Shown in pieces: positions 49,901 to 52,900 of a DNA stretch of 64,000 nucleotides (position 1 is its first letter; each line of letters opens with the position of its first letter). The stretch lies in the NCBI RefSeq assembly GCF_964340395.1, contig NC_135555.1, positions 430,001 to 494,000 on the forward strand, read 5' to 3'. Origin of the DNA: Glandiceps talaboti. Lineage: Eukaryota; Hemichordata; Enteropneusta; Spengelidae. The translations under genes were made by a program, and so were the position numbers. The notes under the pieces were generated by a model. The model saw nothing but the letters and a program-made list of their open reading frames with translations. It had not been told where the DNA came from and ran no database searches.

Positions 49901-52900
49901 CTATGTTCAGAGACATTGATATGTGAGAAGGAATCTAAGGACATTGACACTAGTGTTGTCCTTGAGGGTCAAAGTGAGTGCATGGGATGCTTTTATCATT
50001 AGATCATGTATTTTTGAGTTGTGTGTTTGTGCTACACTAGGGAAATATATGTCCCATTGTTAAGCAATGTAATGTAGGTTAAGTTAACTTTTCTGTATAC
50101 CGAGGGTAACTTTCCAAATATGGATTGTGGTGCATTTAATGACATTAAGCTTTAAGTTTAGTCCCTGTTTTCAGCCAAACGTATCAGACATTAGTGGCTT
50201 GGTAGGTTTATATGAAGGAGATAAAATGCATAACCTTTGGGTACAAAAGTCATGGTATATTGTGATAATAAATTCCAAAGCTTGATGGTGATCAGAGAAA
50301 GTAGTTTAATGTTTAGAGTATGACAAATGGATGCTGAATTGTCAGACATCAGCAAACAAATGTATTTATTTTGGAGTTTACAACACTTTGTGTATATGGA
50401 GAGAAATATTTCCTTTTCTTAGTTTGGTGTGGTATTTTCTTGGAGAAAGATAACACTTTCTCTTTTTAACACAACATCAAGTTATGGTAAAGATGTCCCA
50501 TATCAGGTTACAATTGTCACCTACATGTAGGTGTATAGGGTGAAATATTGTATGCTATCGTTAGTATCAAATATTGAAGTATTGTGACTTTGAGGGAAAG
50601 AAAATTCTTTGGTGGGCACAATTGAGACATTAATAGAAATTGAAATTTGCAGTAAGAATGAAAAATGTAATTGCTATGTATATTTGAGTTATAAATCTAT
50701 AATTTGTAGACAGACACAGTATTGATGATCTCTAAGCTAATTATTGTGATCTTTTTATAGGCATGGTGGTCCAGAATGTCCAACCGATTCCGTAACCTAA
50801 AACTAACAAGTACATTCCGTGCCAGATTTTCCTCTAACCGACTTCAGCCATTCCATGATGAAAATACTGATAAAGATGCTACATTGAAAAGATCTGACAA
50901 ATCGTCACGGTCAAATACAGATAGTCAGCTTGATGATAGAGATAGGAGGTTGACCAGTCCTAAGAAATCAGCCAGTGTTGACAGTGGTTTGGATAACAGT
51001 CATGGCAGCAAGGCACTCTATACATTGGTAAGTGTATGTCGTGATTTGGATAACAGTCATGGCAGCAAAGCACTCTATACAAAGGTAAGTATATGTTGTG
51101 GTTTGGATAACAGTCATGGCAGCAAGGCATTCTATACATTGGTAAGTATATGTTGTGGTTTGGATAACAGTCATGGCAGCAAGGCATTCTATACATTGGT
51201 AAGTATATGTTGTGGTTTGGATAACAGTCATGGCAGCAAGGCATTCTATACATTGGTAAGTATATGTCGTGGTTTGGATAACAGTCATGGCAGCAAGGCA
51301 TTCTATACATTGGTAAGTGTATGTCGTGATTTGGATAACAGTCATGGCAGCAAGGCATTCTATACATTGGTAAGTATATGTTGTGGTTTGGATAACAGTC
51401 ATGGCAGCAAGGCATTCTATACATTGGTAAGTATATGTCGTGATTTGGATAACAGCCATGGCAGCAAAGCACTCTATACATTGGTAAGTATATGTTGTGG
51501 TTTGGATAACAGTCATGGCAGCAAGGCATTCTATACATTGGTAAGTGTATGTCGTGATTTGGATAACACTCATGGCAGCAAGGCATTCTATACATTGGTA
51601 AGTGTATGTCGTGATTTGGATAACACTGTCATGGCAGCAAGGCATTCTATACATTGGTAAGTGTATGTCGTGATTTGGATAACAGTCATGGCAGCAAGGC
51701 ACTCTATACACTGGTAAGTATATGTTGTGGTTTGGATAAGTCATGGCAGCAAGGCACTCTATACATTGGTCAGTATATGTTGTGGTTTGATAACAGTCAT
51801 GGCGGCAATTAGTATCATTTCAATTCAGTATAATGACTTTTTGTCTTGTGTTGAGTCACTACAGTAAAGTTCATTATGATTGACTGACTTTTGTTTTGTG
51901 TTTACAGTCACTAGCATCACCAACAGCAAAGCTTCCCAATGAAAAGTTGATGCCAGTGGTACCACCATTCCTGCCACCACCATCATTTGAACTTAGCAAC
52001 ACTGATAGACCACGTATGCTGTCTTCAGATTCAAAGGTAAATGGAAGATTCATTCGTTACTGCACTTAGCTGTAGAACCCACATAGATTTGACTTCCTTA
52101 CTGCACTTAGCTGTAGAACCCACATAGATTTGACTTCCTTACTGCACTTAGCTGTAGAACCCACATAGATTTGACTTCCTTACTGCACTTAGCTGTAGAA
52201 CCCACATAGATTTGACTTCCTTACTGCACTTAGCTGTAGAACCCACATAGATTTGACTTCCTTACTGCACTTAGCTGTAGAACCCACATAGATTTGACTT
52301 CCTTACTGCACTTAGCTGTAGAACCCACATAGATTTGACTTCCTTACTGCACTTAGCTGTAGAACCCACATAGATTTGACTTCCTTACTGCACTTAGCTG
52401 TAGAACCCACATAGATTTGAATTCCTTACTGCACTTAGCTGTAGAACCCACATAGATTTGACTTCCTTACTGCACTTAGCTGTAGAACCCACATAGATTT
52501 GAATTCCTTACCAATAACTGAAAGTGAATGAAATCAACATATTTTATCTTGTTGTACTATTAATCAATAGTTTGAATGTTTTTCTCCTTTGTCGTTTCAG
52601 AGTGGCAGTAGAAGACTTGTCCAGTCTGGTAAATTTTCTGGAATGTCAAGGACCATGACAAGTCCTCGTAGTCCAAGTGATTCAGTTAATTTTGGCTACT
52701 ATTCATCTAGTCCTAACTCCTCCAATGGTGCAGGGGCTGTTGGTAGGCTATTTACAGCATCACATAGGTCACATCCAATGTACAGAAGACATACATTTGA
52801 TCCTTCAGGTAATGCTTTCAACTCTTATGACGTGTTAATATTTAAATGAATACAAAAATGACTTGAATCTTAAGACTAGTTTTGCACATCAGTGGGCTTT

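Follow-up and report, generated by a model that had tools for sequence, protein, structure and literature searches.

The window analyzed in this study, a 64,000-bp stretch of the genome of the hemichordate Glandiceps talaboti (contig NC_135555.1, positions 430,001 to 494,000), contains a gene that is ANKS6-like according to its predicted domains. Pfam recognized ankyrin repeats in its upstream part and a SAM domain downstream, and in PDB the SAM part matched ANKS6 best (4nl9_C, E 1.3e-24). One exon of this gene (50761-51027, plus strand, 89 codons) has an open frame from the acceptor AG at 50759-50760 to a donor at 51028 and gave one match in the genome assembly. Directly 3' of it lie 13 tandem units composed of the exon tail and the first intron bases. 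Tandem Repeats Finder, run on the window, described the array as a 57-bp unit in 14.5 copies with 93% matches (50984-51808), which confirms the proposal of the first-pass annotation that the exon tail had been amplified in tandem together with GTAAGT. The unit comprises 44 exonic nucleotides and GTAAGT, and its 57 bp correspond to 19 codons. The last 44 nucleotides of the exon are 91-98% identical to the tails of the ten units at 51028-51597 (plus strand), each of which starts with GTAAGT and is in frame and free of stops; for these ten, the unit is indeed exactly 19 codons long, as had been claimed.

The donor GTAAGT recurs with a step of 57 bp at 51028, 51085, 51142, 51199, 51256, 51313, 51370, 51427, 51484, 51541, and 51598. 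All 11 of these donors are in frame 0 relative to the exon, with no stop between them. Translation of 50761-51907 in the exon frame gave 89 exon residues and ten 19-residue units, followed by an eleventh unit (51598-51656), which leaves the frame through a +2 indel. The next ANKS6-like exon (51908-52036, plus strand, 129 bp, 43 codons) begins in phase 0, and translation of the joins from 51028, 51085, or 51598 to this exon confirmed an open frame, while for the eight donors between 51085 and 51598 it was deduced from the 57-bp steps. The earlier count of 11 in-frame donors, adding from zero to ten extra repeats, is thus correct for the frame-compatible part, but the array holds 14 donor copies. 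The eleventh in-frame donor opens a series of units of 59, 57, and 55 bp (51598-51768, plus strand), and a decayed final copy follows (51769-51808, plus strand). Because of the +2 indel in unit 51598-51656, the joins from 51657 and 51714 (both GTAAGT) and from 51769 (GTCAGT) to 51908 encounter a stop codon at residue 299-300. Donor 51769 is also the only exception to the perfect GTAAGT, which is present in 13 of the 14 copies, in line with the earlier statement that most donors are perfect.

Several other features accompany the array. On the minus strand, it is crossed by two long open frames of 222 and 283 aa (50960-51819); they are a mechanical by-product of a stop-free repeat and bear no sign of a gene. 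Pfam also matched the peptide encoded by the repeat (Imm8 and DUF378 above the curated cut-off, three others below it), but these hits were dropped as repeat artefacts because no single stretch passes. The intron after exon 51908-52036 consists mostly of a second minisatellite (52053-52511; 41 bp in 11.2 copies, 99% matches), which begins about 16 bp past the donor of that exon.

The predicted pairing of the donors with U1 was not uniform along the array. The second donor (51085-51090, plus strand), the only one with the context AAG/GTAAGTAT, pairs at 10 of 11 positions and has the strongest predicted duplex of the 14 (-12.5 kcal/mol), a point absent from the first-pass annotation, as is the PDCD6 array described below. 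The other 12 GTAAGT donors reached -11.0 kcal/mol with 8-10 of 11 positions paired, and donor 51769 only -6.9 kcal/mol; for comparison, -6.8 kcal/mol was predicted for the donor that follows exon 51908-52036. Since the downstream donors are equal to or better than the first one by U1 pairing, some downstream use is likely, and if any downstream donor is used, 51085 would be the first candidate. This raises the question of whether 51085, and not 51028, is the main donor, in which case the protein would constitutively carry one extra 19-residue unit. The frame is open from 51085 and its pairing with U1 exceeds that of 51028; however, 51028 is itself a good donor, and in four other genes of this genome (PDCD6, AQR, MRPS5, and IARS; see below) it is the first donor that fits the conserved protein. 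We therefore regard such a shift of the main donor as unlikely.

A second array of the same architecture is situated in the window 20 kb from the ANKS6 array. The tail of a PDCD6 exon (31074-31183, plus strand), which ends with ...CVVIQ/GTATGTG, is repeated along with its donor, forming an array (31184-31581, plus strand) with ten GTATG donors from 31184 to 31572 at a spacing of 41-48 bp. Eight of the ten donors, the first included, share an identical 11-base context. When the first donor was joined to the last PDCD6 exon (32359-32460, plus strand), the product matched PDCD6 (1hqv) over 136 residues without a gap (E 3.7e-64). Of the nine donors that follow, at +44, 85, 133, 174, 215, 256, 300, 344, and 388, seven are not at multiples of 3, and read-through past the first donor ends at 31238, where the second unit has a stop. 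Judging from these predicted joins, a series of proteins made from successive donors would break a conserved EF-hand protein in PDCD6, yet the donor copies are present.

The whole assembly (590 Mb, 47 contigs) was searched for donor arrays with a pattern of three exact tandem donor words. The numbers below are matches and not arrays, so that one array can yield overlapping matches and long arrays weigh heavily, and they are uncorrected for the frequency of each word. Compared with the reversed-word control, AGGTAAGT gave 3000 matches vs. 1004, CAGGTAAGT 511 vs. 197, and CAGGTATGT 1235 vs. 175, whereas AAGGTAAGT showed hardly any excess (569 vs. 517). A preference of minisatellites for donors is unsupported by these data, given the negligible excess for AAGGTAAGT and the weight of long arrays in the counts.

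Among the matches listed, 27 upstream flanks were read, seven from AGGTAAGT and twenty from CAGGTAAGT and CAGGTATGT; arrays from the AAGGTAAGT search alone lie outside this set. An array was assigned to an exon end if the first donor was reached by an open frame that followed an acceptor-like AG or by a longer coding frame, and if at least 17 nt of the tail recurred in the unit at an identity of at least 80%. Eleven of the 27 arrays were of this kind (L025, L027, L028, L029, L031, L032, L034, L044, L045, L046, and L049). Two were left out of the count: L035, next to an exon with which it has just 7 nt of tail in common, and L033, which has an open frame only. The remaining 14 flanks (L023, L024, L026, L030, L036-L043, L047, and L048) had no clear exon, and in some of them (e.g., L036, L037, L041, L043, and L048) the array filled the whole flank fetched. 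On contigs C1 and C2, for which the lists of CAGGTAAGT and CAGGTATGT matches are complete and were grouped into arrays by eye, 9 of 22 arrays were at exon ends. Scaling from these contigs (69.9 of 590.4 Mb) suggests about 75 exon-end arrays genome-wide for these two words, and our guess for all donor words would be hundreds.

Some arrays drew attention for other reasons. L038 and L040 (C1, at 2.08 and 6.91 Mb) have their unit and upstream flank in common, as if the array had travelled with a dispersed repeat. For the ANKS6 array, a mobile element is not needed as a source, as its exon matched the genome once. In the array at C2:7468355-7469099, AAGGTAAGT occurs in units on both strands, and the repeat is partly self-complementary. 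Within the window, a 63-bp array of 40 copies (3298-5678) has a unit that starts with the donor-like CAGGTGTGT, with no exon evident upstream, and the units of two further arrays (54716-54913 and 34416-34656) contain the acceptor-like words TACTTTGCAG and TTGATGCAG, with no recognized exon adjoining. Open frames on the minus strand at 57136-58508 resemble what we take to be a fragment of a non-LTR reverse transcriptase.

A number of the exon-end arrays could be assigned to conserved genes. Pfam identified KNTC1 (L031, 6.3e-9), aquarius (AQR; L034, 3.1e-10, with a PDB match to aquarius at 1.9e-12), laminin EGF (L044, 5.6e-17), and ribosomal S5 (L046, 1.6e-16; PDB uS5m, 7e-11, i.e., MRPS5). The match of L049 to spectrin (3.6e-4) was below the curated cut-off, L028 matched isoleucyl-tRNA synthetase (IARS) in PDB (4.4e-7), and L045 had a weak likeness to DHTKD1 (0.037). 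L032 had no Pfam or PDB matches, and L025 had no Pfam matches. For three of these genes, the downstream acceptor and frame extend the protein from the first donor: ...ITSLQ/RGAFKYFPEL in AQR, ...GLASQ/ETHQQIADRH in MRPS5, and ...EMT-A-YRLYTVVPKLVRF in IARS. The continuation past the exon in AQR and IARS is one that we take to agree with the human proteins, and for MRPS5, part of the related stretch is seen in the alignment with uS5m from PDB. The first donor spacings in AQR (61 bp), MRPS5 (68 bp), and IARS (46 bp) are not multiples of 3. Together with PDCD6, these predicted joins fit the first donor being the working one in four genes. In all four, donor copies follow although the first one already carries the conserved protein on, so that this architecture also occurs where a series of such isoforms would break the protein.

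The first-pass annotation had proposed that the ANKS6 locus could make a ladder of proteins differing by 19-residue steps. The anatomy and the frame permit this and IFI6 provides a precedent, but no sequence evidence favours it. In its functional form, the proposal holds that several of the 11 donors are used and that the linker preceding the SAM domain has a length that depends on the allele and is under selection. The 11 donors are frame-compatible and open, their pairing with U1 is equal or better downstream, and some IFI6 isoforms are reported to use two downstream repeat units (PMC4526556). The variation among the ten units, however, reveals no coding constraint: six variants are nonsynonymous and two synonymous, and random change predicts 74% and 24%, which fits neutral DNA, a comparison resting on eight variants. 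Nor is the first spacing typically a multiple of 3. It was so in just 2 of the 13 exon-end arrays (the 11 described above, PDCD6, and ANKS6), with a chance expectation of 4.3, and for 1 of 12 if ANKS6, the given case, is left out; the other one is the spectrin-like L049, whose unit is also open. Neither measure contains a signal of selection for frame. Adding that the last three ANKS6 donors lead to stops and that PDCD6, AQR, MRPS5, and IARS have arrays in which such a series would break the protein, we consider a selected ladder quite improbable.

The open frame of the ANKS6 unit can be compared with chance. Of random 57-mers from the window, 30% are stop-free in one frame; with a further factor of 1/3 for length, about 10% of arrays should be both open and in frame. 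The periods of the 68 minisatellites found in the sampled DNA were divided 25/18/25 by their remainder modulo 3. An open, in-frame unit is therefore an ordinary outcome, as far as these small samples go. The ANKS6 array itself is far beyond chance, but its open, in-frame state is not, and 11 open in-frame donors are unusual for any single array but not for a large set.

Minisatellites, defined by a period of 20-250 and at least 2.5 copies, made up 16% of the 274 kb scanned, with 18 of the 68 arrays in the window and 50 in 21 pieces of 10 kb, which were taken at set positions and not at random, with three from C1 and most others at a distance of 400 kb from a contig start. Two of these pieces are extreme: L012 (C10, 400 kb) consists throughout its 10 kb of a single 50-bp array, and a single 40-bp array covers 5.3 kb of L018 (C16, 400 kb). 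Without them the share was 11% (27,967 of 254,000). With 68 arrays in 274 kb and units of about 50 bp, founding units cover roughly 1% of positions, and many exon ends would therefore be struck by chance. A donor-specific mechanism for the birth of arrays is not needed, although one may exist.

The possibility that repeat assembly distorted the array or its copy number was also considered. Assemblies in general tend to err in the copy number of tandem arrays, and this one does contain repeat artefacts: the mitochondrial contig C40 carries COX1 three times in steps of 15,435 bp and is likely an assembly concatemer. The ANKS6 units, however, have their own substitutions and indels, the exon has one genome match, and similar arrays are present on several contigs, which makes an artefact hardly credible. 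On C40, the matched stretch of COX1 contains 13 in-frame TGA codons, and the four ATA codons of COX1 stand at positions where other animals have Ile. Ahead of COX1, ARAGORN predicted Asn, a tRNA with anticodon tca, Ala, and Tyr; Ser(tga) follows COX1, and Arg then His were predicted elsewhere. The tRNA with anticodon tca was read as Trp. The C40 piece examined has 53% GC. As for the nuclear contigs, exactly 23 exceed 15 Mb (C1, C2, C4-C20, C22, C23, C24, and C26) and together account for 587.5 of 590.4 Mb, which leaves no room for another large one; 23 chromosomes are also given for two enteropneust hemichordates with genomes of 1.16 and 0.93 Gb (PMC11175523). The ATA codons at Ile positions and the 23 large contigs both point to a hemichordate, and amphioxus, considered at one stage as the source, was dropped on these grounds.

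The observed anatomy and frame of the ANKS6 array, its unit variation, its sister arrays, and the four conserved proteins that continue from the first donor would be best explained by tandem duplication of a short segment across an exon/intron boundary of the ANKS6-like gene, giving rise to a minisatellite of the kind called "mirage." The first copy would be the working exon end and the remaining copies would be intronic. Homogenization may keep the copies alike, so that donors persist, with decay at the 3' edge. We infer the mutational origin, the neutrality, and the donor use in ANKS6 from these features: the spliceosome would mainly use 51028, or else the stronger donor next to it at 51085, for joining to 51908, and the array would be tolerated rather than selected. 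Further donors may be used leakily, giving some additional 19-residue steps; in ANKS6 these would be harmless, as its unit happens to consist of 19 stop-free codons. It is probable, in our estimation, that the ANKS6 array is such a tolerated minisatellite with the first or second donor doing the work. It is rather doubtful that alleles set an appreciable in-frame linker series in ANKS6 and that graded or allele-dependent isoforms occur across a set of hemichordate genes.

Arrays at the exon ends of conserved genes are frequent enough in this genome for statistics. Each of them is a natural competition of near-identical donors at fixed spacing, and RNA-seq on such arrays could show how much weight the spliceosome gives to position relative to U1 pairing. 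They are also relevant to the way in which tandem duplication lengthens exons or creates introns, and to the changes that repeat-length alleles could cause in proteins. A search of the openly licensed literature found no report of splice-site minisatellites in hemichordates, which is a weak negative.

The closest known system is that of the amphioxus mirages, of which Adh3, TnC, globin, and PGBD5 were compared. These are tandem duplications across exon-intron boundaries, many with AG/GT signals, which are unstable in length and are reported not to interfere with regular splicing (PMC3087553). A further study reports no aberrant mRNAs for the Adh and TnC mirages and similar repeats in lancelet PGBD5 (PMC3902484). 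The ANKS6 array is likewise a tandem array across an exon-intron boundary with a unit made of exon tail and splice signal (44 exonic nt and GTAAGT), and as is typical of mirages, such arrays are present at further exon ends in this genome (PDCD6; 11 of 27 arrays). Unlike the amphioxus mirages, the ANKS6 array has open, in-frame units. Experiments in amphioxus demonstrated both the instability and the normal splicing, whereas the ANKS6 array is known from its sequence. Glandiceps talaboti is a hemichordate and not a cephalochordate, and we do not claim common descent of the arrays.

The human IFI6 gene (6-16, G1P3) contains a minisatellite with a repeat unit of 12 nt. Isoforms arising from two downstream repeat units are described in PMC4526556. 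In both IFI6 and ANKS6, an exon-end minisatellite supplies several in-frame donors (11 in ANKS6), but downstream use has been reported for IFI6, whereas in ANKS6 the units are 57 bp long and the donors are predicted. Tandem repeats at human exon-intron boundaries have also been reported, and in them, as possibly in ANKS6, minisatellite expansion alters exon/intron structure and creates splice choices; they differ in that they were described for genes in young segmental duplications and are framed there as exon lengthening and novel introns (PMC2812944). Our analysis extends the splice-site minisatellites known from amphioxus, IFI6, and some human duplicated genes to a hemichordate genome.
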